Positions 4,667 to 52,095 of a stretch of 64,000 bases of DNA are shown one piece after another. The DNA comes from Candidatus Peregrinibacteria bacterium. Its GTDB lineage: Bacteria > Patescibacteriota > Gracilibacteria > UBA1369 > LOWO2-01-FULL-3. The notes under the pieces are model-generated. The model did not search any database. It was not told the origin of the DNA and worked only from the letters and a program-made list of their open reading frames with translations. Location: contig JABILX010000002.1 in NCBI GenBank assembly GCA_018654255.1, positions 1 to 64,000 on the forward strand. Reading direction: 5' to 3'. A program made the translations under genes and the position numbers. Position 1 is the first letter of the stretch. The number at the start of each line of letters is the position of its first letter.

Positions 4667-5047
4667 CTAGTACACAAAGAATCCAAAATACCCAAGCACC
4701 AATCCAAGAATCAATGCGAATACTGGCGCAAACCACATGTACTTAACAAAAACTTTAGCAAACTTCATAAAAGGACCAGGAATCAAAACCAACAAAGCAC
4801 CTTTTACCAAAGCAGCCCAACCAAGAATTGTAATGATCACAGTCCAATCTGCTACCCAGAAATTATGGTATGTAACAAGGAGGAAACCTATAGCAAGAGC
4901 GAACATTCCACCATAAAAAGCAACAGCAGAACTTTTCATAACATCCTTCATCATTTTTTGGTAATACTTCATGTTAAGAAGCATCCCAAGGCCAACAGCC
5001 ACGTACACTACCGCAATCAACTTTGCGATAAACAAAGATAGATCCAT
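4667..5047 (-). CDS. Four-helix membrane protein, paralogue of the one at 29770
   Basis: The product is about 126 residues from the ATG at 5047 (MDLSLFIAKLIAV). That start is preferred because the 12 codons upstream are polar and the helix begins here. Four hydrophobic segments are visible. The middle (FYGGMFALAIGFLLVTYHNFW, then IITILGWAALVKGALLVLIPG) matches the 29770 protein in order and motif (IIPIIGWISLAKGLALLWWP), so the two are paralogues. The function is unknown. The GWxxLxKGxxLLxxP pattern is the best family mark. Confidence 0.65.
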   Translation of the reverse strand: MDLSLFIAKLIAVVYVAVGLGMLLNMKYYQKMMKDVMKSSAVAFYGGMFALAIGFLLVTYHNFWVADWTVIITILGWAALVKGALLVLIPGPFMKFAKVFVKYMWFAPVFALILGLVLGYFGFFVY

Positions 5048-5240
5048 AGAAAGAGGGGTTAAAATATGTGAAAACCATACCATTTATTCAATATCATCTC
5101 AACAACCTACTCTTCAACATAAATTTCCTAGGGATACACCTAGGAAGAGACGAACAATCAAATATTATACAAATTCGGTTTCCATATCCCCGTTATACAA
5201 AATTTGTTAAAATACAAACAGTAAACTTAATCAAACCCCA

Positions 5241-5624
5241 ATGCCAAAAGCAGAAACCCCAGGAGGAGGATCTAAAACAGAGAGAATAGATCCAACTCAA
5301 GAAACCACAGAAAAAATCAAACTAAACAGTAAATCAAAATTAGCAGAGATGAGCGCAATAGTCCCACAGATAGAAGACACTCTCGAACAACCAGAAGACG
5401 ACATAGTTGGAGAACCAGAATTAGAAGACGAAGGAACTTACACCGAATGGATCGAAAACGAACTCCTCTCTGAAGACACTCCTCTCAACACAGAAAAAAG
5501 AAAGGTCCTAGGCAAAATCAAAACAGCAAAAGACATCACAGAAGAAGAAAAAAACAATCTACTAGACCAATTGGTTAAAGCAGAAAAAACAGAGGCCCTA
5601 GAAAAACTTAGCTCAAAACTCTAG
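5241..5624 (+). CDS. Small acidic hypothetical protein
   Basis: This 127-residue protein is rich in Glu, Asp and Lys with no hydrophobic segment. Its first 60 residues look disordered. The end (KRKVLGKIKTAKDITEEEKNNLLDQLVKA) looks like a short helical hairpin. I do not recognise it. The codon use agrees with the neighbours. Its stop lies 4 bases from the converging stop of the 5629 gene, so both ends are tightly packed. Confidence 0.5.
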   Translation: MPKAETPGGGSKTERIDPTQETTEKIKLNSKSKLAEMSAIVPQIEDTLEQPEDDIVGEPELEDEGTYTEWIENELLSEDTPLNTEKRKVLGKIKTAKDITEEEKNNLLDQLVKAEKTEALEKLSSKL

Positions 5625-15858: not shown

Positions 15859-16173
15859 CTATCTAGTTAGTCCACCCCAACTACCACCGATAGCTTGAGT
15901 TGCTGGATCTTCATATCCACCCCAACTACCACCGATTGATTCTAGACTAGTATCCAAAACTGGCGCTGTGTTTCGTAACTCTAACGTAGGAGCAGAATAA
16001 TCACGAAGAGTTGACGTTTCCATATGAGAAGGCGTGAAAACCTCGTAGAAGAACAGAAGTCCTACAGCAATACCTCCGAGAATCGCTCCAAGAAGGAAAA
16101 CCATAAGCACACGTGCTGAATGATGAGAACACTCACCAGAACAACACTCAGAAGATTTCTTTGTTTTTGCCAT
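15859..16173 (-). CDS. Small membrane protein with IGGSWGG repeats
   Basis: This 104-residue protein starts with a Cys/His-rich cytoplasmic piece (SECCSGECSHH), has one membrane helix (about residues 20-44, VLMVFLLGAILGGIAVGLLFF), and then an outer tail with two copies of IGGSWGG. The tail repeat is exact at DNA level over 21 bases. I do not recognise a family. The CCxxxC-HH head may bind a metal. It has its own extended -10 promoter and its stop faces that of the large ATPase 10 bases away. Confidence 0.55.
   Translation of the reverse strand: MAKTKKSSECCSGECSHHSARVLMVFLLGAILGGIAVGLLFFYEVFTPSHMETSTLRDYSAPTLELRNTAPVLDTSLESIGGSWGGYEDPATQAIGGSWGGLTR
15871..15936 (-). repeat. Two 21-bp exact direct repeats
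   Basis: The same 21 bases occur at 15871-15891 and 15916-15936, encoding the two IGGSWGG copies in the tail of the small membrane protein. This is a recent in-frame duplication. Confidence 0.85.
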
Positions 16174-16255: not shown

Positions 16256-17200
16256 CTACATAACCAAGTTAAAAAGCCAACCAATCAAAACTATTCCAAC
16301 AGTGACAATTCCAAAGAAAATCCCCAAAAGCTTCAGACTCATTACCCTCTTCAAAATCATAGCTTCAGGAAGAGAAAGACCTGCAACCGACATCATGAAA
16401 GCAAGTGAAGTCCCAAGAGGAACTCCTCCAGCAGTAATAGAGAAAATAACAGGTGCAATAGTCGAACATCCCGCATATACAGGCACCCCAAGAAAAACAG
16501 CCATAGGCACAGCAAAATACTCGAATCGCCCCACATAATCCATGAAGAACTCTTCAGGAACAAATCCATGTATCACAGCCCCAAGTCCAATCCCTCCAAT
16601 AACATAAGGCACAAGCTTCTTGAAAGTCTTAAATCCTTCCTTGAAAGACCATCTCAACCTGAACTCAAACTTTCTAAACCTCCTAGACTCAGCAACTCTT
16701 CCTTTAGCCTTATCCAAAATAATTTCCTTCTCTAAACCGAGAGATCCTATAATCATACCAGCAATAACCCCCAACAAAATCCCAGAAACAGCATAGATCG
16801 CAGCCAACTTCCAACCAAAAAGACCACCCATAATCACAAAAGCCACTTCATTCACCAAAGGAGATGTAATCAAAAAAGAAAACGCCACTCCAAGAGGAAC
16901 CCTAGCCTTCAAAAACCCTATAAAAAGTGGAATGGACGAACAAGAACAAAAAGGAGTCATTGCTCCAAAAGAAGCAGCCAACAGATGCCCCAAACCAAAT
17001 CTCGCTCCCTCGACTCTCTTCCGGAATTTATCCGGATCAACATAAGTCCCAACAAAAGCAATCAAACTAACAACAAAAAATATAAGAACCAATATCTTGA
17101 GAACATCATAAACAAAAAAGTGAGCAGCTATCGTCAACTGCTCTCCAGCAATCATACCTAGCCAATCATAGACAACAACATCCGCTATATATTCAAACAT
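16256..17200 (-). CDS. DUF318 family permease (YraQ/ArsP-like)
   Basis: This 314-residue protein has about eight membrane helices and the family mark TPFCSCSSIPLFIGFL (about residues 80-95) followed by PLGVAFSFLITSPLVNEVA. The Cys-x-Cys-Ser-Ser segment is the DUF318 permease signature. Some relatives (ArsP) carry organic arsenicals; others have no known substrate. A second mark, VYAGCSTIAPV, is in the C-terminal half. A highly basic loop lies near residues 170-190. Its start lies 3 bases past the end of the dCTP deaminase gene, so the two are probably one transcript, although their functions have no evident link. Confidence 0.8.
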   Translation of the reverse strand: MFEYIADVVVYDWLGMIAGEQLTIAAHFFVYDVLKILVLIFFVVSLIAFVGTYVDPDKFRKRVEGARFGLGHLLAASFGAMTPFCSCSSIPLFIGFLKARVPLGVAFSFLITSPLVNEVAFVIMGGLFGWKLAAIYAVSGILLGVIAGMIIGSLGLEKEIILDKAKGRVAESRRFRKFEFRLRWSFKEGFKTFKKLVPYVIGGIGLGAVIHGFVPEEFFMDYVGRFEYFAVPMAVFLGVPVYAGCSTIAPVIFSITAGGVPLGTSLAFMMSVAGLSLPEAMILKRVMSLKLLGIFFGIVTVGIVLIGWLFNLVM

Positions 17201-17203
17201 GAT

Positions 17204-17749
17204 TTATTTGGTTAATTTAGCCTCCCCATCCTGATAAACTCTACTCCCCACCGACTTAGCTTGTCTTTGATATTTCCCAGCATATGGCTTATCCGCCGAC
17301 CGATCCATCTTACAAAAAACAAGCTGACAAACACGTCTTCCCGCTTTCAATTTAATAGGCAAAGAATTCGCATTATATAATTCAAGAGTAATTCGTCCCT
17401 CAAACCCGGGATCCACCCAACCAGCATTCTGAATAAAAAGCCCCATCCTCCCTATAGAACTCCTCCCTTCAACAAAACCAGTCAAATTATCTGGCAATTT
17501 CACGTACTCCATAGTCGTCGCAAGCAAAAAAGAATGTGGCGGAATCGTAATTTCATCGCCCTCAATCTCTCTATACTTTGGCTCAGAATCAAGTGTCAAA
17601 ATATCCGACGTATTATCATCCACAATCAAGTAATGAGTACCCAACCTACAATCAATCGACGCAGGTTGAATCGAGTGATCTGCAAGCGGCTCAACCACAA
17701 GTTCCCCTGAGGCAATCATCTCCTTCAAAGTACTATCTGACAAAATCAT
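17204..17749 (-). CDS. dcd: dCTP deaminase
   Basis: This 181-residue protein matches the dCTP deaminase/dUTPase fold. SIDCRLG is the early strand, GRSSIGRMGLFIQNAGWVDP holds the nucleotide and the catalytic region (Ser-Ser pair, then Gly-W-x-Asp-P), and GFEGRITLEL carries the catalytic Glu region. It converts dCTP to dUTP (or, in bifunctional members, to dUMP) in thymidylate supply. Length and motif order are normal. It lies upstream of the permease, and diverges from the Fur gene 75 bases away, so the same spacer may hold both promoters. Confidence 0.9.
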   Translation of the reverse strand: MILSDSTLKEMIASGELVVEPLADHSIQPASIDCRLGTHYLIVDDNTSDILTLDSEPKYREIEGDEITIPPHSFLLATTMEYVKLPDNLTGFVEGRSSIGRMGLFIQNAGWVDPGFEGRITLELYNANSLPIKLKAGRRVCQLVFCKMDRSADKPYAGKYQRQAKSVGSRVYQDGEAKLTK

Positions 17750-17795: not shown

Positions 17796-17821
17796 TTATT
17801 AATGCAAATGATTCTTAATAA
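17796..17821 (+). promoter_or_regulatory. Candidate Fur/PerR operator
   Basis: TTATTAA and TTAATAA (inverted, 12 bases apart) enclose TGCAAATGATTC, which resembles half of a Fur box. It ends 4 bases before the Fur-family start, as expected for autoregulation. The match is partial. Confidence 0.4.
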
Positions 17822-17824
17822 GCC

Positions 17825-18262
17825 ATGCCGGCAAATAAAATGCCAATTTGTATTTGTACAACCTGCAAACCACGCCAAACCAAGCAGAGAACCATCATCC
17901 TTGAGGAAATACGAACTGTAAAAACTCACCCAACAGCAGATGAAATCTTCAGCATGGTCAAAAAAAGACTTCCAGGAATAAGCTTGGCAACTGTTTATAG
18001 AAATTTAGATTTCTTAGAAAAAGAAGGTGAAATTTTGAAACTAAAGCACAAAAACAACGAACAAAAAGCACATTACGACGGCTTCCCCACCCTGCACTAC
18101 CACCTAATATGCAAAGAATGTGGACAAATCCAGGATATCGACGATTGCGGATGCGTACTTCTAGACAACAAAAAAATGTCAAAAAAATATAGCTTTGAAA
18201 TAGATCCAAACACGATTGAAATAATGGGTCTATGTAAAAAATGTAAAAACTCTAACCAATAA
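17825..18262 (+). CDS. fur: Fur-family metal/peroxide regulator
   Basis: This 145-residue protein has the Fur layout. A winged helix carries HPTADEIFSMVKKRLPGISLATVYRNL (recognition helix ISLATVYRNL). The dimer domain has HYHLICKECG and a C-terminal CKKC, the Cys pairs for the structural zinc. The N-terminus adds a Cys motif (ICICTTCKP) that is not usual. It is not clear from sequence whether it senses iron, zinc or peroxide. Its position ahead of the superoxide reductase (5-base gap) and the Cys-rich peptide supports a PerR/Fur stress role. An imperfect palindrome upstream may be its own site. Confidence 0.85.
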   Translation: MPANKMPICICTTCKPRQTKQRTIILEEIRTVKTHPTADEIFSMVKKRLPGISLATVYRNLDFLEKEGEILKLKHKNNEQKAHYDGFPTLHYHLICKECGQIQDIDDCGCVLLDNKKMSKKYSFEIDPNTIEIMGLCKKCKNSNQ

Positions 18263-18266
18263 AATA

Positions 18267-18659
18267 ATGAAAAGCCACAGATGCAAAGTATGCGCATACA
18301 TTTGTGTAAACGACCTTCCAGATGATTATATCTGTCCCGTTTGCGGAGTAGGCAAAGATCAATTCGAAGAACTTCACCAACTAGGAGAAGAACAAACCGG
18401 TGGAGAAGCTCAAGAAAAACACGTTCCCGTAATATCTGGAGACGAAACATCAACTACAGTAACAGTAGGATCTGTAGAGCACCCAATGACAAACGAACAT
18501 CACATAGTATGGGCAGAACTCCATGAAGGAGACAAAGTCCTCAAAAAAATTGAACTACAAACAGACACCCCACCAGTAGCAAAATTTGAAGGAATCCCTT
18601 TCAAAGAAGGATACAAAGCAATCGCTTTCTGTAACCTCCATGGACTTTGGGAATCATAA
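18267..18659 (+). CDS. Rubredoxin-superoxide reductase fusion
   Basis: This 130-residue protein joins a rubredoxin-like zinc/iron knuckle (Cys at 6, 9, 23 and 26; CKVC then CPVCG) to a superoxide reductase domain. The SOR centre is visible as EKHVPVI, EHPMTNEHHIVWAEL and CNLHGLW, giving the four His and one Cys that hold the catalytic iron. SOR reduces superoxide to peroxide without making oxygen, typical of anaerobes and microaerophiles. The N-terminal domain may pass electrons to the SOR centre. It is second in the operon with Fur. The length suggests a class II-like neelaredoxin with an added rubredoxin finger. Confidence 0.85.
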   Translation: MKSHRCKVCAYICVNDLPDDYICPVCGVGKDQFEELHQLGEEQTGGEAQEKHVPVISGDETSTTVTVGSVEHPMTNEHHIVWAELHEGDKVLKKIELQTDTPPVAKFEGIPFKEGYKAIAFCNLHGLWES

Positions 18660-18692
18660 AATCTAAACATAAAATCAACTAACCAAATCAAA

Positions 18693-18824
18693 ATGGGATG
18701 CAAATCAGGATCATGCAAAGCTTGCAAAGACTGTAGTTGTGAATGCGAAATATCATGCAAAGAATGCGGTTGCGACTGTAACTGCGGAGATCAAGGATGC
18801 GGATGTGGATGCGGATGCGACTAA
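18693..18824 (+). CDS. 43-residue metallothionein-like Cys-rich protein
   Basis: An ATG at 18693 opens a frame of 43 residues with 15 cysteines (35%), at positions 3, 8, 11, 14, 16, 18, 22, 25, 27, 29, 31, 36, 38, 40 and 42. They are mostly in CxC or CxxC form, with Gly, Lys and acidic residues between and no aromatic residue. That is the profile of metallothioneins, though I match it to no known family by sequence. It is 33 bases downstream of the superoxide reductase in the same direction, so it is probably in the Fur operon. It stops 4 bases before the converging cysteine desulfurase. It could hold iron, zinc or copper, or buffer metal for the SOR. Confidence 0.7.
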   Translation: MGCKSGSCKACKDCSCECEISCKECGCDCNCGDQGCGCGCGCD

Positions 18825-18827
18825 GAT

Positions 18828-19997
18828 TTAAGCAAACCTCGAATTAGCAACTTTTTGAATACTTTTGATAAGTATCTGGGTTGCTTTTTCAATTTCTTTC
18901 TTCGTTGAGAATCTACTTAAAGAAAATCGAATAGTATTTTTAGCTTCATCGTCAGTAAGACCAATTGCCTTCAACACATGACTGACATGTCCTTTCTCCT
19001 GGGAACTACACGCAGACCCTTTTGAAGAACAAATACCAGAAACATTCAGATAATCACCCAACATTCCACCATTAACAGGAAACATTAGATTCATATTATT
19101 ACAAAGCCTCTTGCTCCCAGATCCTTCATCACGAGGACCATTTAACTTCACACCAAGTTCAGCTACCAAGACCTGATCAATAAAATAATCGCGAAGCTTA
19201 ATCATGTCTTTTACGTGCCCACTTTTGGAAGCCAACTTCACCGCCTCAGCAAATCCAACGATACCAGAGACATTTTCCGTCCCAGCACGTCTACCTGCTT
19301 CATGATTTCCTCCATGCGAAACTGGAGTCAACGAAATCCCATCTCGAACATACAAAGCCCCAACTCCTTTTGGTCCATGGATTTTGTGAGAATTCAGCGT
19401 AACCAAGTCCAGCCCCATTTTGCCAACATTCACATCAACCTTTGTAAAACTTTGACACGCATCGGTATGTAAATGAACTCCCTTATCATGACAAATCTCA
19501 CTTATAGCCTTCAAATCCTGAACAGTCCCAATCTCATTATTTCCGTGAATAATCGTTACCAAAAAAGTCTCATCCCTCAAAGCGCCACGAAGTTGATCCA
19601 AATCAACAAAACCTTCAGAATCAACATCCAACCAAGTCACCTCAAACCCCTGAGTCTTTAGCCACTCACAGGTAGTCTTCACACAACTATGCTCAATCTT
19701 AGTAGTAATAATATGGTTTTTCCCTGTACCAGATTCCTTTTGATAAAAAGCCAAACCTTTAATCGCAAGATTATTAGACTCGGTTCCGCCAGAAGTAAAA
19801 ATAATTTCCTCATCTTTTGCCCCAATAGATTTAGCAATCACATGCCTAGCATCCTCGAGGGCACGATGAGCGTCAGACCCCATCTGATGTGCCGAACTAG
19901 GGTTTGCACAAACCTCACTAAAAAAAGGCGTCATCTTTCGGATCACCTTCGGATCAACTTCAGTGCTAGCCCCATTGTCCAAATAAATCATTTTCAT
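18828..19997 (-). CDS. Cysteine desulfurase (NifS/IscS family)
   Basis: This 389-residue protein has all key residues: the PLP-stacking His in IEHSCVK, HTDACQSF with the Asp that holds the pyridine nitrogen, the Schiff-base Lys in SHKIHGPKG, and the active Cys in the mobile loop SSKGSACSSQ. It takes sulfur from cysteine for Fe-S clusters and tRNA thiolation. The loop fits the IscS-like group rather than SufS. No scaffold gene (iscU, sufU) is near. It converges on the Fur operon, ends 4 bases past the Cys-rich gene, and reads from its own promoter. Confidence 0.9.
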   Translation of the reverse strand: MKMIYLDNGASTEVDPKVIRKMTPFFSEVCANPSSAHQMGSDAHRALEDARHVIAKSIGAKDEEIIFTSGGTESNNLAIKGLAFYQKESGTGKNHIITTKIEHSCVKTTCEWLKTQGFEVTWLDVDSEGFVDLDQLRGALRDETFLVTIIHGNNEIGTVQDLKAISEICHDKGVHLHTDACQSFTKVDVNVGKMGLDLVTLNSHKIHGPKGVGALYVRDGISLTPVSHGGNHEAGRRAGTENVSGIVGFAEAVKLASKSGHVKDMIKLRDYFIDQVLVAELGVKLNGPRDEGSGSKRLCNNMNLMFPVNGGMLGDYLNVSGICSSKGSACSSQEKGHVSHVLKAIGLTDDEAKNTIRFSLSRFSTKKEIEKATQILIKSIQKVANSRFA

Positions 19998-20068: not shown

Positions 20069-20563
20069 TCATGCTCCACCAAAATAACTATTTACAAAAG
20101 TTCCAACCAAATAAGTCAGTAAAATTACCAAACAAGTAATCGCCAAATGCTCAAACACAACATGCCAAGCACTAACCTTCTGCTTCACAGCAAACAAATA
20201 ACTAAACACACTAATTAGAAAAACACCAAACGCAATACTAACAAAAATTGCAGTATCAAGAGGCAAAGTCAAAACAGGTATCACAAAAATTGACGCAAAT
20301 ATAACTTTGAATATCAAAGTAGAAAAAGTAGCCACCCACACATCCTTCAAACCATCATTTTTCCCACGAATAGACTCTTCAGAAACATGAACAGCCATAG
20401 CATCAGCCAGAGAATCCCCTATCGCTATCAACAAAATTCCACCGATAACAGCAACTTTTGAATGAGTCCCCGCATTCAGCCCAACCATCATACCCAAAGT
20501 AGTAATAATTCCAGACGTCAGTCCAAACCCAAAACCTTTCATCCAAGCTTTTTTAACAGCCAT
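20069..20563 (-). CDS. VIT/CCC1-like metal transporter
   Basis: This 164-residue protein is nearly all membrane helices (about five). The start GFGFGLTSGIITTLGMMVGLNAG and the following GDSLADAMAVHVSEES match the vacuolar iron transporter (VIT1/CCC1) family, whose members move iron or manganese out of the cytoplasm. The family has a ferritin-like insertion in some members; here it is absent. It starts 4 bases after the stop of the Ser-rich gene (20567), so they share a transcript. Placement near Fur and SOR fits iron handling, though it is in another operon. The stop is TGA. Confidence 0.75.
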   Translation of the reverse strand: MAVKKAWMKGFGFGLTSGIITTLGMMVGLNAGTHSKVAVIGGILLIAIGDSLADAMAVHVSEESIRGKNDGLKDVWVATFSTLIFKVIFASIFVIPVLTLPLDTAIFVSIAFGVFLISVFSYLFAVKQKVSAWHVVFEHLAITCLVILLTYLVGTFVNSYFGGA

Positions 20564-35590: not shown

Positions 35591-36583
35591 TTAATTGTAC
35601 CGCGCCAATTCCTTCTCATCAAAATAAGGCTCCGTCCAATGCATCGACGCATTACTATCCTCAAAAGAATAAGTTCCAGGCAGATGCTCACCCCATTCTC
35701 CGCTATCAATCATCGCACGCTTAATCTCCGCAACTCGCTTCTCCCATTCCTCAAGAGACCCAACTTTTTCATTAAAAATACAATACTCAGCATGATTCAT
35801 CGCAAAACACCCGAAACAGTGATGTGAATTATGCACATTCTCACAATAAAACAGATCATTCGAATAAAAACACGTCACACAATAGTCACAGTTATAAAGC
35901 TCCATTTCACTCATAACATCATAACAAAGCTCAGATTTATAATAGGAATTACTCATGTCAAAACAATCTTTCAACTCTTCAGAATTATTACAATACATAG
36001 AATCCTCAAGCTTGATTGTATCAAAACACAAAAACGAATTTTTCGAGTCATAAACATAATCACCAGTACAATTCTGGTTGTGAAGCTGATGAACATACAT
36101 CCGAGGAGTTTCACATTTCAACTCCTCCACACGAGCCTCAATCTCTTCAGAGGTCATTGACCTCTTTATTCGATCAACCTCATCCTTATAATTTGCAACT
36201 TTTTTATTAAAAACCATATTTTTTGACCTCCTCTCTCCAACACATCCGAAACAATCGTTACAACCAACACAATCATATAAATACTCACAGTCTGTGCAAT
36301 TCTGACAATCCTGAGAACGATTAGTGTTATAGCATCCCCTACAATCCACACAGTCATAACAAAGCGTACAATCCCTACAATAATCACAACCCACAGAATC
36401 CTTTGAGTTATAGATGAAAAAAGAATAATAACAGTCTTCACTAAACTCACTTCCATAACACAAATAACAATTCTTCATATTCCCCGAATAACTAACATAA
36501 GGACTGTTTTCACACCTTATAATCATTGCCCCCATCCGAGGCTGTTTGAACCTAACGTCGTACATTTGTTTGAGATATGACAT
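35591..36583 (-). CDS. Two-array Cys-rich family protein (330 aa)
   Basis: This soluble 330-residue protein has no signal peptide. Its first array (residues about 25-120) has Cys every 3-6 residues, for example CRDCTLCYDCVDCRGC and CVGCNDCFGCVG, closed by MVFNKKVANYKDE. A second array (about 170-270) ends with YCIFNEKVGSLEEWEK. The tail has the SGEWGE motif. The same layout is seen in the four other large members. Aromatic residues (Tyr, Phe) follow many cysteines. I do not recognise a family; zinc or Fe-S binding is only a guess. It lies upstream of the small ribbon gene and diverges from the broken SLH gene. Confidence 0.65.
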   Translation of the reverse strand: MSYLKQMYDVRFKQPRMGAMIIRCENSPYVSYSGNMKNCYLCYGSEFSEDCYYSFFIYNSKDSVGCDYCRDCTLCYDCVDCRGCYNTNRSQDCQNCTDCEYLYDCVGCNDCFGCVGERRSKNMVFNKKVANYKDEVDRIKRSMTSEEIEARVEELKCETPRMYVHQLHNQNCTGDYVYDSKNSFLCFDTIKLEDSMYCNNSEELKDCFDMSNSYYKSELCYDVMSEMELYNCDYCVTCFYSNDLFYCENVHNSHHCFGCFAMNHAEYCIFNEKVGSLEEWEKRVAEIKRAMIDSGEWGEHLPGTYSFEDSNASMHWTEPYFDEKELARYN

Positions 36584-40107: not shown

Positions 40108-41040
40108 TTAGTGCTCAATCCCCTCAAATTCCTCATCTTCAAAAACTGACATCAAATTCCCAGCCTCCGAAGATTCCAGGAGCTCTTTCCATATCTCAGC
40201 AACTCGAGTTTCATACTCCTCCTTCGATGTGCAAGGCTCATTCAAAACATGATACTTCTTGTGATGCAGACCATCACACATGAAACAACTTTTGCAGTCC
40301 TGGCACTGAAAACAGAACTGACAATCCGAACAATTCGCCAAAAAACACGAATAATTACAATTAAAATTCCATCCTCCACCAATACACTCATAACCCAACT
40401 CAACCTTGGTAAAAGAACAATCAACAGAATCAATTATCTCATAAGCATTAAAACAATACGCATCATCTCGCGATCGAACCATATCAAAACTCCAATAACA
40501 CCTCTGAGAATTCTCGATATGATTTCCAACACAATCCTCTGACTTCAAAATAAAATCTCTGTGAGGAACTTTCAGTTTCAATTCCTGAACCTGTTTCACA
40601 TCGTGTTCTGAAAACCGAACATTCTCAATATAACTCTCATACTCCTCCTGAGAAACTTTCTCATTAAACAAATGATATTTCTTACGAACCAATCCAACAC
40701 ACCCATAACATTCATCACAACCAGTACAATCATAACAACCCACACAATCCCGACAATCCTTGCAGTCCTGACAAAACGAGCATCCATAACACCGCGCACA
40801 ATCCATACATTCATAACAAAGCTCACATTTCTCACAATATGAACAGTCCACCACATCCTCCCCGTGATAAACCCAATAATTATAGTAACAATCCCTCTGC
40901 CAACCACTTCCCCTCGTAAAAAAACAATCCTTGCTATGATTCGTGTGTGAAGTAAAAGCCGAGTTTTCACAATTCCACTGGGTCAGCGCCAGCTTCGGTG
41001 TCTCAAGAAGCAACTTTTTATAATCTTCAAGGAAACTCAT
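40108..41040 (-). CDS. Two-array Cys-rich family protein (310 aa)
   Basis: This 310-residue protein has 35 cysteines by my count (11%). The first array (about residues 45-120) is the densest in the family, a row such as CYECMDCARCYGCSFCQDC, closed by HLFNEKVSQEEYES. The second array (about 165-260) ends with YHVLNEPCTSKEEYE. The C-terminal SGEWG motif of its relatives is changed here (SSEAGNL). There is no ribbon and no signal peptide. The gene lies 9 bases after the lipoprotein at 41050 in the same direction, so the two could share a transcript. Confidence 0.65.
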   Translation of the reverse strand: MSFLEDYKKLLLETPKLALTQWNCENSAFTSHTNHSKDCFFTRGSGWQRDCYYNYWVYHGEDVVDCSYCEKCELCYECMDCARCYGCSFCQDCKDCRDCVGCYDCTGCDECYGCVGLVRKKYHLFNEKVSQEEYESYIENVRFSEHDVKQVQELKLKVPHRDFILKSEDCVGNHIENSQRCYWSFDMVRSRDDAYCFNAYEIIDSVDCSFTKVELGYECIGGGWNFNCNYSCFLANCSDCQFCFQCQDCKSCFMCDGLHHKKYHVLNEPCTSKEEYETRVAEIWKELLESSEAGNLMSVFEDEEFEGIEH

Positions 41041-43316: not shown

Positions 43317-44264
43317 TCACCCAGCATCAAACCTCTCCCCCTCCAAAATAGGCCACTTCCCCCACTCGCCCGAAGCTTTCATCTCCTCAATAATCTCCGC
43401 CTTCTTTTTTTCATAATCTTCAGGCGAATACTTCTCATTCAAAATCATATATTCACCATGATTAACACTCACGCAACCAAAACAATTTTTCGAATTAAAA
43501 ACCTGAAAACAATAATCACAATCACGCGTAACCTCACAATAGTAACAAAACGAGCAATTGTAGCCTTTACCAACCTGAATGCACTGATAACACTGATTGA
43601 GATCCACATTCGACGTAACATCCCACGTATCCACGGTCCTTTCCCCATAAACATTGTAATGAAAATAAACATACCCACAATCCTGAACACCATCAGCATC
43701 AAAACACTCAACACAGCGCTGAGCATTCTGCAAATGATCTCCAGTACTATCTTCAATCCTGTAATTCATCATATGTTGATGAGGAACAGACTCTTTGATT
43801 TTTTCAAACTCAGCAAAAATCGCATCCATACCTTTAGCCTTCCATTCAACAACACCTTTCTCATACTCCTCTTCCGAAAGCTTTTTATTAAACAAAGTAT
43901 GTTGCTGCTGCCGAAGTCCAGCACACCCAAAACAATTGCTGCATCCAATACAATCATAACAAAACATCGAGTCACTCACCCTCCTGCAATCCTGCAACCA
44001 CACACCGTTATAGCACTCATGACAATTCACACATTCATAACAAAGTTCACACAAATCACACACACTACAATCCCCACAATATTTGCACTTTTTCCCCTGA
44101 ATACAGTACATACAATGCTCAAAATAATCCCCATGCACACACATATAACAGTTCTTCGAAAAATAGAGGTAATCGTTATATTCACACCCTGTGTTCTTGA
44201 ACCCGCGCAATCCTAGGTGCGCAGATTTCTGCTTCAATTTTTGGAAATCTTCAAAAAATGTCAT
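43317..44264 (-). CDS. Two-array Cys-rich family protein (315 aa)
   Basis: This 315-residue protein has a first array at about residues 25-120 (CSVCDLCELCYECVNCHEC and CIGCSNCFGCAG), closed by HTLFNKKLSEEEYEK. The second is at about 165-255 (CYQCIQVGKGYNCSFCYYC), closed by MILNEKYSPEDYEKKK. The ending ASGEWGKW is the family tail. The stop is TGA. The TrmB-like regulator gene ends 19 bases upstream of its start, making it the one member with a clear regulator in the same unit. Confidence 0.65.
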   Translation of the reverse strand: MTFFEDFQKLKQKSAHLGLRGFKNTGCEYNDYLYFSKNCYMCVHGDYFEHCMYCIQGKKCKYCGDCSVCDLCELCYECVNCHECYNGVWLQDCRRVSDSMFCYDCIGCSNCFGCAGLRQQQHTLFNKKLSEEEYEKGVVEWKAKGMDAIFAEFEKIKESVPHQHMMNYRIEDSTGDHLQNAQRCVECFDADGVQDCGYVYFHYNVYGERTVDTWDVTSNVDLNQCYQCIQVGKGYNCSFCYYCEVTRDCDYCFQVFNSKNCFGCVSVNHGEYMILNEKYSPEDYEKKKAEIIEEMKASGEWGKWPILEGERFDAG

Positions 44265-47537: not shown

Positions 47538-49166
47538 TTAATAAATTGTTTCTTCATAACACTTCTCACAATACACTTTCTCCCTCTTCTCAGTCGAATA
47601 AGTCGTCCAATCTTCTTCCCCGCACTTAGAACACGCCCTCTTCCAAAGACGACGCGGCGTCCTCAAAGCAATCCTATCCAAGTGCCTACAATCAGGACAT
47701 TTGCGTGGAACAGGCAAAACCCGCTGCTTATAAAACTTCAATTCTTGTGGAATTAATTTGAAACTCTTGCCGCACCCGCCTTCGCAACCTTCCCCACATC
47801 CCACAACATCATCAGCCGCCTTCCCACCTCCAGAGCCAGAAGCCCCCGAAGACTGAGCCTCCTTCCATCCATATCCCTTTTCTGAAGCCTCCTCACGCGA
47901 AATAGGCATATACTCCTGCGCAACCGTCTCGTTGTACGCCCAAGGCGCAATTTGCGCCGGAAAAAACTCACCCCACTCACCAGTCTTCTTCATATGCTCA
48001 ATCAACTTCTCTTTCAACTCCTCATACTCTTTTTTCGAATATTGCTTATTCAAAATACAATACTTGTACCGATTCAAAGCAATACACCCAAAACAATCCG
48101 ATGAATTGTTCAACTGATCACAATAAAAAACATTATTACAGTAGTGAGTCGCCATATTGTAAGCGCTATACTTCAGCGCAAGCGTCGAAATCAACTCACA
48201 CGAAACCTCCGGCTCATACAACGAATAACTCAAATCATAACAATCACGAGCATCCAAAACATCAAACAAATACTTACAATCCCAAGAATTCACAATATTA
48301 AAACAAACCTTACAATTCTTCGAATTTTTGATGTTATTCCCGGTACAATCCTCCGAACCAGCTCCCCAAGTTGACTTGTGAATCGCATCTTCCTCCATCA
48401 TTTTCTTCCATTTCGCTTGCGCTTCCTGCATCGCTTCGTAATCACCCAGCTTCAACTCTTCAACAAACTTTTCATATTCCTCCTCTGAAACTTTTTTATT
48501 AAAAATATGATGCTTCTTATGCCTCAAATTCCAACAAAACACACAATCCGAACACCCTTTCAAATCAAAACAAAAAGCACAATCATTACACCCCTCCAAA
48601 TACATCGACCACCTGCAATTCCAAGATTTATGACAACTAATCACCTCATAACAAAGCTCGCTGTGGTACGCAAAAGTACAATCCGCACAATTCTTCGAAT
48701 ACTTCGTAAACAAGTTGAAATAACAATCCTCATTTGCCTCCCCCGCTATATCGAGATAACAACTCTTATCATCCCCACAGTAGTTGCAATAATTACTATT
48801 CTCACAATGCACAATATCAATTCCCAACCGCGGCACCTTGTTCATCAACTCCTCCCACTGCTCAAAAAATGGCCTCTCAAAATCAATCTCCTGACCATAC
48901 GACAACGGATCCCAATCATCCTTCCACCATTCATCCGGATCATAGACCGGGAAAGGAGTGTCTGAAGGATAAATTGCGACAAATTCTTTTCCGCTCTTGT
49001 CACATTTGCGCGAATAAAAACTCCGATCATTCCTCCAAGCCATTCTTCTCTGCACACGACAAACCGGACAGAACGTCGGCTCAGGAATATGAGCCTTAAC
49101 GTAAAACTTTTTGTCCATCTCATCTAATTCAAATTTTGTTGAGCAGTTTTTGCAAGTTTTCATCAA
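47538..49166 (-). CDS. Two-array Cys-rich protein with zinc ribbons at both ends (542 aa)
   Basis: This 542-residue protein has an N-terminal ribbon (CKNC, CPVC, then CDKSG without the fourth pair), then the Cys arrays with FNKKVSEEEYEK (about residue 240) and LNKQYSKKEYEE (about 395). A tail has GEWGEFFPA and YNETVAQEYMPISREEA, then a Gly/Ser linker and a complete C-terminal ribbon (a Cys-Gly-x lead, CPDC, CSKC, CEKC). The N-terminal ribbon lacks the cysteines for its second zinc; the C-terminal one has them. The lipoprotein follows 10 bases downstream. No function is known. Confidence 0.7.
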   Translation of the reverse strand: MMKTCKNCSTKFELDEMDKKFYVKAHIPEPTFCPVCRVQRRMAWRNDRSFYSRKCDKSGKEFVAIYPSDTPFPVYDPDEWWKDDWDPLSYGQEIDFERPFFEQWEELMNKVPRLGIDIVHCENSNYCNYCGDDKSCYLDIAGEANEDCYFNLFTKYSKNCADCTFAYHSELCYEVISCHKSWNCRWSMYLEGCNDCAFCFDLKGCSDCVFCWNLRHKKHHIFNKKVSEEEYEKFVEELKLGDYEAMQEAQAKWKKMMEEDAIHKSTWGAGSEDCTGNNIKNSKNCKVCFNIVNSWDCKYLFDVLDARDCYDLSYSLYEPEVSCELISTLALKYSAYNMATHYCNNVFYCDQLNNSSDCFGCIALNRYKYCILNKQYSKKEYEELKEKLIEHMKKTGEWGEFFPAQIAPWAYNETVAQEYMPISREEASEKGYGWKEAQSSGASGSGGGKAADDVVGCGEGCEGGCGKSFKLIPQELKFYKQRVLPVPRKCPDCRHLDRIALRTPRRLWKRACSKCGEEDWTTYSTEKREKVYCEKCYEETIY

Positions 49167-50406: not shown

Positions 50407-52095
50407 TCAAAAAAACTCCTTCACATACTCCTCAGGACTCCACACATCCTCCATCCTATCCGGAGAATAAGAAGTCCAAACAGGAACCCTGCTCCGAGCA
50501 CACTTCCTCTGCCACAATCGCCTAGGATTCTTCGACCTACGCCTCACATAATGTCGACAGTTATAGCACAACCTAGGAATAGGAACTCCAAACCTCCTAT
50601 AATACTTCAATTCTTGAGGCGTAACTTTATAATTCCGCCCACATTCAGAGCACCCCAAAATTTCATCGACAATAGAATCAGGAACATCAGATATAGCATT
50701 CGGGATTTCATACTTTTGCTTAGCAAACTCACGCGCCGGAATATCCATCCAATTCCACCCCCGCTCCTTAACCGCATCACGATCCAAAGGATAAAATTCA
50801 TGAGCAACAGTTTCGTTATAACCAAACCAAGAAGTCTCAGCTGGCATAAACTGCCCCCACTCACCAGTCTCTCTCATATGAGCCACAATCCTCTCCAACA
50901 ATTCATGATATTCATCTTCAGAATATTTCTTATTTAAAATACAAAAATTCTTATGCCTCAATCCAACACACCCAAACAAATCAAACGAACTATCCCAACA
51001 AAAAGCAGAATAATAAACATTCCCTACGTTTCGCCCAGCATAATAATTACACATTAATTCCTGAGCACCAGCACCAACACATTCACAATTATAAGCCAAA
51101 TTCATATTTTCTCCCCAGATATCAACATCCATACAATCATTCGCCCCAACCACAACGTTCGTACAATACCTACAATCCCGGAGGCCAGCACAATCAAAGC
51201 AATAATAACAATCCTTACAATTATCGATATGATCACCTATCACCTCCTCATTTTTCACCCCACGATAAGCCCTTTTCGGTTGCTTCACCACAAATTCAGC
51301 AAATTCCTTTTTGAACTTCTCCAGCCCCTCATAAGAGTCAATTTTATACTCCTCCAACTTTTCCTTATAATCCTTCTCCGAATATTGTTCATTAAAGATA
51401 CAAAATTTAGCCTGACTCAAATTACAACAAGCAAAACAATCTTTACACCCAACACAGTCATACAAAAAAGCCGATTCGCTACACGTCTTACAAAACTTAC
51501 AAAATTTAGAATTATAACAATTCGAACAATTCACGACCTCATAACAAAGCTCACACTGACTCGCAACCAAGAAATCCATACAATCCTTCAATTTATAAAA
51601 AGTCTCCCCATACATACAATCCCAAGATTGCTCTCCATCAAAGGTCAAAAAACAATTTTTCAAACGATAAGCATCATGCGCATAATCACTATTTTCCTGC
51701 TCACCCAAAACAATCAGACTCATCCTCGGAACCTCATGATAAAGCTCCTTCCACTGATCAAAAAACGGCCGCCCAAAATCAAACTCACGACCATAATCAA
51801 GTGGATCATCCTCCCCTCCCCACCAACACTTCGGACAATAAACCGTGGCCTCTTTGTCTGGTGAAAAAATCGACAACATGTTTTTTCCACACTTATCACA
51901 TTCATCAGGATACAAATTTCGCTCATTTCTCTGAGCCTGACGTCGCTGCTGCCTACAATCCCAACATTCAATTGGATCTGGAATGTCATACTTGTCATAC
52001 ACCTTCATCTTGTCCAAAAGCTCTCTATCTTCCTCAAACACAGAAAAATCAGCCCCACAAGTAACACATTTCTTTTGATCAACAACTTGGCTCAT
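50407..52095 (-). CDS. Two-array Cys-rich protein with zinc ribbons at both ends (562 aa)
   Basis: This is the longest member, at 562 residues. The N-terminal ribbon is complete (CVTC, CWDC, CDKC, CPKC). Array one is closed by FCIFNEQYSEKDYKE and array two by FCILNKKYSEDEYHE. The shared tail GEWGQFMPAE and YNETVAHEFYPLDRDAV follows. The C-terminal ribbon keeps CSEC and CYNC but lost the last two pairs (single Cys in KCARSR, Trp in place of Cys after). So it mirrors the 47538 protein, where the N-terminal ribbon is the reduced one. The stop is TGA. It is not clear whether it shares a transcript with 49181 and 47538. Confidence 0.7.
   Translation of the reverse strand: MSQVVDQKKCVTCGADFSVFEEDRELLDKMKVYDKYDIPDPIECWDCRQQRRQAQRNERNLYPDECDKCGKNMLSIFSPDKEATVYCPKCWWGGEDDPLDYGREFDFGRPFFDQWKELYHEVPRMSLIVLGEQENSDYAHDAYRLKNCFLTFDGEQSWDCMYGETFYKLKDCMDFLVASQCELCYEVVNCSNCYNSKFCKFCKTCSESAFLYDCVGCKDCFACCNLSQAKFCIFNEQYSEKDYKEKLEEYKIDSYEGLEKFKKEFAEFVVKQPKRAYRGVKNEEVIGDHIDNCKDCYYCFDCAGLRDCRYCTNVVVGANDCMDVDIWGENMNLAYNCECVGAGAQELMCNYYAGRNVGNVYYSAFCWDSSFDLFGCVGLRHKNFCILNKKYSEDEYHELLERIVAHMRETGEWGQFMPAETSWFGYNETVAHEFYPLDRDAVKERGWNWMDIPAREFAKQKYEIPNAISDVPDSIVDEILGCSECGRNYKVTPQELKYYRRFGVPIPRLCYNCRHYVRRRSKNPRRLWQRKCARSRVPVWTSYSPDRMEDVWSPEEYVKEFF

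Follow-up and report, generated by a model that had tools for sequence, protein, structure and literature searches.

The window, a stretch of 64,000 nucleotides that forms part of contig C9 in the 1.24-Mb genome of an uncultured Peregrinibacteria bacterium, carries an array of three genes on the plus strand at 17796-18824. The open reading frames and the profile searches agree with the preliminary description that these encode a FUR-family regulator, a fusion of rubredoxin and superoxide reductase (SOR) and a cysteine-rich protein of 43 residues. The regulator gene and the SOR gene are separated by 4 nt, the SOR gene and the small frame by 33 nt, and no terminator-like site was found within the array region. 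The spacing suggests that perR, the rubredoxin-SOR gene and the cysteine-rich frame are co-transcribed. The features of the locus are as follows.

16256..17200, minus strand: divergent ArsP_1/SaoE-like metal(loid) permease gene (PF03773, E 2e-56; relative at L009 2992-3945), context only
17204..17749, minus strand: divergent dCTP deaminase-like gene (homologous frame at L009 2452-2988), context only
17798..17822, plus strand: probable operator palindrome, shared with the promoters of L009, L004 and L011
17825..18262, plus strand: FUR-family regulator (PF01475, E 6e-26)
18267..18659, plus strand: rubredoxin-SOR fusion (PF01880, Desulfoferrodox, E 4e-19, over the cut-off; RUBY_RBDX, E 5e-8)
18675..18692, plus strand: start signal CTAACCAAATCAAA before the small frame, with TAACC at -13
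18693..18824, plus strand: small cysteine-rich frame (orthologue of 45 residues in L009/G018; codon test)
18828..19997, minus strand: convergent cysteine desulfurase gene (class-V aminotransferase, PF00266, E 4e-74; relative at L009 6259-7404), not part of the operon

The ArsP_1 permease, the dCTP deaminase and the cysteine desulfurase are neighbours of the array in both the window genome and the relative L009, with the order of permease and deaminase swapped between the two. The name dCTP deaminase is our own recognition of the sequence. The permease matched NF040736 with E 1e-29, below the cut-off of that model, and its matches to the SaoE and SO_0444 models likewise stayed under the thresholds. 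Immediately downstream of the permease gene lies a 104-residue membrane protein (15859-16173, minus strand) with the N-terminal motif CCSGECSHH, a possible metal-binding partner. On the other side of the array, a short membrane protein at 20069-20563 (minus strand) resembles the VIT1 iron transporter family weakly (E 2e-4, below the cut-off) and is syntenic in the relative (L009 8034-8531).

Conservation of the small cysteine-rich frame

The translation of the small frame is MGCKSGSCKACKDCSCECEISCKECGCDCNCGDQGCGCGCGCD. It contains 15 cysteines in 43 residues (35%), arranged in 8 CxC and 3 CxxC pairs, and the count on the sequence bears out what had been described, including the distance of 33 nt from the SOR gene. 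The protein has no histidine and no aromatic residue, hydrophobic residues are nearly absent, and the spacers between the cysteines are Gly, Asp, Glu and Lys. The earlier remark that the gene is too short for usual gene calling was overstated, since its 132 nt exceed the 90-nt minimum length of common gene callers.

In the window and 400 kb more of the genome (464 kb in all), no second ATG-started frame of 20-90 residues with at least 17% and at least 7 cysteines was found. The cysteine density is not unique, because long proteins of the window also reach 15 per 43 residues (40717-40845). Density alone is therefore not decisive for the small frame, and conservation decides. The long proteins, encoded on the minus strand, have dense CxxC repeats with 9-15 cysteines per 43 residues, for example CSYCEKCELCYECMDCARCYGC, in these stretches:

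36260-36388, 40717-40845, 44022-44150, 48534-48662 and 51427-51555, minus strand: CxxC-dense stretches

The one CxxC-repeat protein that was searched against Pfam had no match, and a similar protein (MTNPYSCKSCRSQF...) adjoins the SOR locus L004.

The search for orthologues beside SOR genes that the preliminary description had suggested gave one, in the same operon position of L009. This locus belongs to G018 (SI054_bin37), a genome of another genus in the same family. The frame at L009 5462-5599 begins 11 nt past the stop codon of the SOR gene (5001-5450) and encodes 45 residues with 15 cysteines and a single, terminal histidine. The two proteins align over their full length with 60% identity (BLASTP E 3e-9), and 14 of the 15 cysteines of the window protein are kept. 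When the same number of changes was simulated under neutrality, a mean of 4.9 cysteines was kept, with a maximum of 12 in 100,000 trials. The two frames differ at 49 nucleotides, which fall on codon positions 1, 2 and 3 in the ratio 12/12/25. This corresponds to a dN of 0.40 and a dS of 2.4, giving a dN/dS of about 0.17, a rough ratio as dS is near saturation. An unconserved frame without purifying selection had been named beforehand as the result that would speak against the gene; the cysteines and the codon test gave the opposite picture.

The start of the frame was examined against 285 frames of at least 150 codons from 464 kb of the genome (the window and L110-L129), taking the 25 nt before each ATG. 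TAACC was present in 42 of the 285 (3.8 expected), at -12 to -18 in 40 cases, and TTAACC in 25 (1.1 expected). The Shine-Dalgarno motifs GGAGG and AGGAG were not enriched before these 285 starts. The genome thus appears to use TTAACC before its start codons instead of Shine-Dalgarno motifs, which is unusual. TAACC lies 13-14 nt before the ATG of the small frame in both genomes, the orthologue having TTAACCCAA. Other operon genes of L009 also carry the TAACC signal. The 16S rRNA gene of the window genome (G000:C6:186380-187123) is cut by a contig end, and the bacterial model matched only to position 800. As a practical matter, the TTAACC signal may help in finding more small genes in such genomes.

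A spurious frame arising from a TGC/GGA-rich repeat has one point in its favour, as a GGATGC repeat is present at the 3' end and slippage could produce it. The frame-specific conservation in the orthologue, the near-saturated synonymous sites and the start signal speak against it. We regard this reading as highly improbable, and it is refuted so far as two genomes permit; the orthologue, together with the codon test and the presence of the start signal, likewise ruled out a chance or low-complexity frame. Judged by the comparison of the two sequences, the small frame is a genuine conserved gene under purifying selection.

Regulator, probable operator and superoxide reductase

PerR proteins are distinguished by H37, D85, H91, H93 and D104 (Bacillus subtilis numbering), with Asp and not Glu at position 104 (PMC8638851). 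The regulator of the window has the full sensing set at H35, D85, H91, H93 and D104 and two CxxC pairs that make up the structural zinc site. Its best solved relative is B. subtilis PerR (2fe3/3f8n). The regulatory ligands, including Asp104, on which the peroxide sensitivity of FUR proteins depends, and the CxxC pairs are invariant in the four operon regulators (window, L009, L004 and L011). At the DNA-reading position 61, PerR has Asn and Fur has Arg (PMC8638851), and here the window protein has the Fur-type residue, Arg59 in ATVYRNL, as do the regulators of the other three operons. On the sensing residues, PerR-type is the better description of the regulator; because of the Fur-type Arg it would be a hybrid rather than a canonical PerR.

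A palindrome of the form CTTATTG-N11-CAATAAG precedes the PerR genes, scoring 14/14 at L009 and L004 and 13/14 at L011. The window copy, ATTAATG-N11-TAATAAG, scores 11/14 (P 0.008 in shuffles). In all four loci it directly follows a -10-like hexamer, which is TATATT in the window, and the palindrome at 17798..17822 is a probable operator overlapping the promoter. When the regulator promoter was compared with the PerR box TTATAATnATTATAA, 9-10 of 14 positions agreed, no better than in shuffles; the middle of the palindrome is closer to the Fur box (10-11 of 14). Further operator copies were sought in the window genome, and only weak, chance-like matches with three mismatches were found.

Most probably the regulator is an autorepressor that senses peroxide and recognises a Fur-like box. 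The inducing signal could instead be iron limitation, because the operator is Fur-like and the DNA-reading residue is the Fur-type Arg. The preliminary description had placed the operon under Fur. The operon does have a regulator of the FUR family and, in front of it, a conserved palindrome that resembles an operator; the PerR-type sensing residues make control by peroxide probable rather than control by iron status, in spite of the Fur-type Arg.

The sensing residues also bear on whether the peptide serves the detoxification of Cu, Zn, Cd, Hg or As, as a metallothionein for external metal with the ArsP_1/SaoE-like permease as exporter. Oxidant control would then be secondary, since such metals provoke oxidative stress. 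The divergent permease gene adjoins the operon in both genomes, and the all-cysteine, CxC-rich composition of the peptide would suit this role. The regulator ligands, however, are those of an iron/manganese peroxide sensor and not of a soft-metal sensor, the permease stays below the SaoE and SO_0444 cut-offs and its order with the deaminase gene differs between the genomes. We consider soft-metal detoxification unlikely.

In the SOR protein all five ligands of the Fe(His)4Cys site and the EKH motif are kept. The residues C6, C9, C23, C26, H52, H72, H78, C122 and H125 are invariant in six homologues (the window protein and five orthologues). The N-terminus is a rubredoxin-type domain of the form CxxC...CxxC; it is shortened, with 13 residues separating the CxxC pairs compared with 29 in L009. 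SORGOdb distinguishes the classes SOR, Dx-SOR, HTH-Dx-SOR and atypical (PMC3116461). The protein resembles Dx-SOR (desulfoferrodoxin, 2Fe-SOR; PMC3116461) in that its catalytic domain has the full set of ligands and is preceded by a domain of the FeCys4 type, but the desulforedoxin N-terminus of Dx-SOR is CxxC...CC, whereas that of the window protein is of the rubredoxin type. In our own reading, the fusion would belong in the atypical class.

Distribution of the peptide among SOR loci

A profile built from the two peptides found family members in 2 of 353 genomes of the class, both from one taxonomic family; a two-member profile of a cysteine-rich peptide is a weak probe and does not prove absence elsewhere. 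With the same profile, no convincing relative was found in 379 genomes of the phylum, in 398 genomes from the phylum of a Clostridia locus or in viral contigs, plasmids and phages. Sub-threshold matches in the class, such as L019, lay in unrelated contexts and were rejected. SOR itself is present in 72 of the 353 genomes. Among 70 SOR stretches read with codes 11 and 25, a small cysteine-rich frame of this kind was found near SOR only in the window genome and L009. Near L031 there is a 39-residue frame with 8 cysteines, but it is dissimilar and is encoded on the other strand some 550 nt away.

In L009 the gene order is perR, a cupin-like frame, rubredoxin-SOR, the cysteine-rich gene and an AhpC-type peroxiredoxin, followed by the convergent cysteine desulfurase and, further on, the weakly VIT1-like membrane protein. 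The label cupin-like is our own recognition, as the frame had no Pfam match. The window locus corresponds to this neighbourhood minus the cupin-like frame and the peroxiredoxin. No counterpart of the L009 AhpC was found in the window genome, which has a rubrerythrin outside the operon. Other rubredoxin-SOR loci have perR, SOR and AhpC (L011), perR and SOR (L004) or SOR without perR (L010 and L012), in each case without the peptide. On this distribution the peptide is a rare, optional addition to a perR-SOR unit that is itself more widespread.

The preliminary description had suggested a metal buffer or an iron donor for the SOR. If dedicated to the rubredoxin-SOR, the peptide would hold Fe(II) and load the Fe(Cys)4 centre and the Fe(His)4Cys centre of the enzyme. 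Its gene directly follows SOR in both genomes, the array includes a FUR-family regulator, and the weakly VIT1-like protein is encoded nearby in both. Yet the peptide is absent from L004, L010, L011, L012 and every further SOR locus of the class that was examined, so SOR maturation should be independent of it. Moreover, cysteine-only ligands prefer Zn and Cu(I) to Fe(II). A dedicated iron donor is therefore improbable, and the peptide is better seen as optional, since other PerR-SOR loci manage without it.

The peroxiredoxin gene next to that of the peptide in L009, the 15 thiols and the convergent cysteine desulfurase common to both loci would fit a thiol or persulfide carrier or a sacrificial thiol reductant with no metal role, perhaps working with the desulfurase. 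The desulfurase gene is on the other strand, however, and so is not co-transcribed, and tight CxC runs typify metal thiolates and not sulfur carriers. We give this explanation little credence.

Proposed function and comparison with known systems

We lean slightly towards a peroxide-responsive, autoregulated operon of perR, rubredoxin-SOR and the cysteine-rich peptide, in which the peptide acts like a metallothionein. While the cell is reduced, the iron-bound regulator would occupy the palindrome and block the promoter. Peroxide would oxidise the regulator site, and the operon would be transcribed. The SOR would then clear superoxide with electrons passed through its rubredoxin domain. The peptide may fold round thiophilic metal ions through its 15 thiolates, binding Zn, Cu(I) or Fe(II) released by oxidised thiolate and Fe-S sites, and the capture of these metals would prevent Fenton chemistry and mismetallation. 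Its thiols could also consume oxidants sacrificially and then be reduced again.

What the DNA itself shows is the set of closely spaced genes, the promoter palindrome, the selection on the small frame and the conserved catalytic and sensory residues. From them we infer derepression under peroxide or superoxide, superoxide removal, and metal buffering with a thiol sink. The function proposed for the peptide is drawn from its composition and position in two members, both of one taxonomic family. In L009 the peptide gene lies between those of two oxidant-defence enzymes, SOR and the AhpC-type peroxiredoxin, and the divergent metal(loid) permease is a neighbour in both genomes. The composition, with 35% Cys, 8 CxC pairs and no His, matches that of cysteine-only metal-thiolate proteins and agrees with the earlier label metallothionein-like. 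The peptide also has the features of metallothioneins in the broad sense, which are a very small size, about 20-35% Cys in CxC and CxxC pairs and few aromatic residues. Thiophilic ions are favoured as the bound metal by the absence of His and the many CxC pairs. Taken together, the small frame is, on sequence grounds, a true gene for a metallothionein-like peptide, restricted to one lineage and set in a superoxide-defence operon with a PerR-type regulator.

Few bacterial lineages are known to have metallothioneins, and most of these proteins are under the control of metal sensors. If the proposal is true, a cysteine-only protein encoded together with SOR under a peroxide-type sensor would couple the buffering of metals directly to the defence against oxidants, and would do so in a Patescibacteria lineage whose genomes are very small. 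The peptide is short enough for synthesis, which makes its metal binding directly testable. Searches of the literature for metallothioneins of candidate phyla, or for any linked to superoxide reductase, gave nothing relevant.

The peptide probably works like a metallothionein, and by the searches made it is outside the described families, including the prokaryotic metallothioneins of Pfam. Neither the window peptide nor its orthologue matched PF02069 (SmtA/BmtA) up to E 10 (cut-off 33 bits). SmtA, used as a positive control, matched at E 3.9e-21. No sequence relatives of the peptide were found in Pfam, NCBIfam or the PDB. Like SmtA and BmtA, the peptide is small, cysteine-rich and probably a metal-thiolate protein. 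It differs from them in its roughly twofold cysteine density, arranged in CxC runs, and in having neither His ligands nor any aromatic residue from which a zinc-finger core could be built. Bacterial metallothioneins typically contain His and hydrophobic residues (PMC10612145).

In make-up the peptide would resemble the CxC-rich metallothioneins of eukaryotes. These consist of about one-third Cys, with many CxC pairs and neither His nor aromatic residues. The peptide differs from them in being shorter and bacterial and in its Gly/Asp/Glu/Lys spacers, and searches of Pfam and of PDB sequences gave no detectable homology. Tentatively, the peptide could represent a bacterial metallothionein family that is new and eukaryote-like in composition, induced with SOR by a peroxide-sensing FUR repressor as an oxidant-induced metal buffer; we give this reading somewhat less than an even chance.

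For the operon as a whole, the nearest established case is the PerR-controlled rbr-perR-sor-CD0828 operon of Clostridioides difficile (PMC11980386). There the accessory genes are those for rubrerythrin and CD0828, and no cysteine-rich peptide is reported, whereas in the window the SOR is a rubredoxin fusion and the regulator has the Fur-type DNA-reading Arg. Both operons unite a PerR-type, H2O2-sensing repressor, an SOR and an accessory gene.
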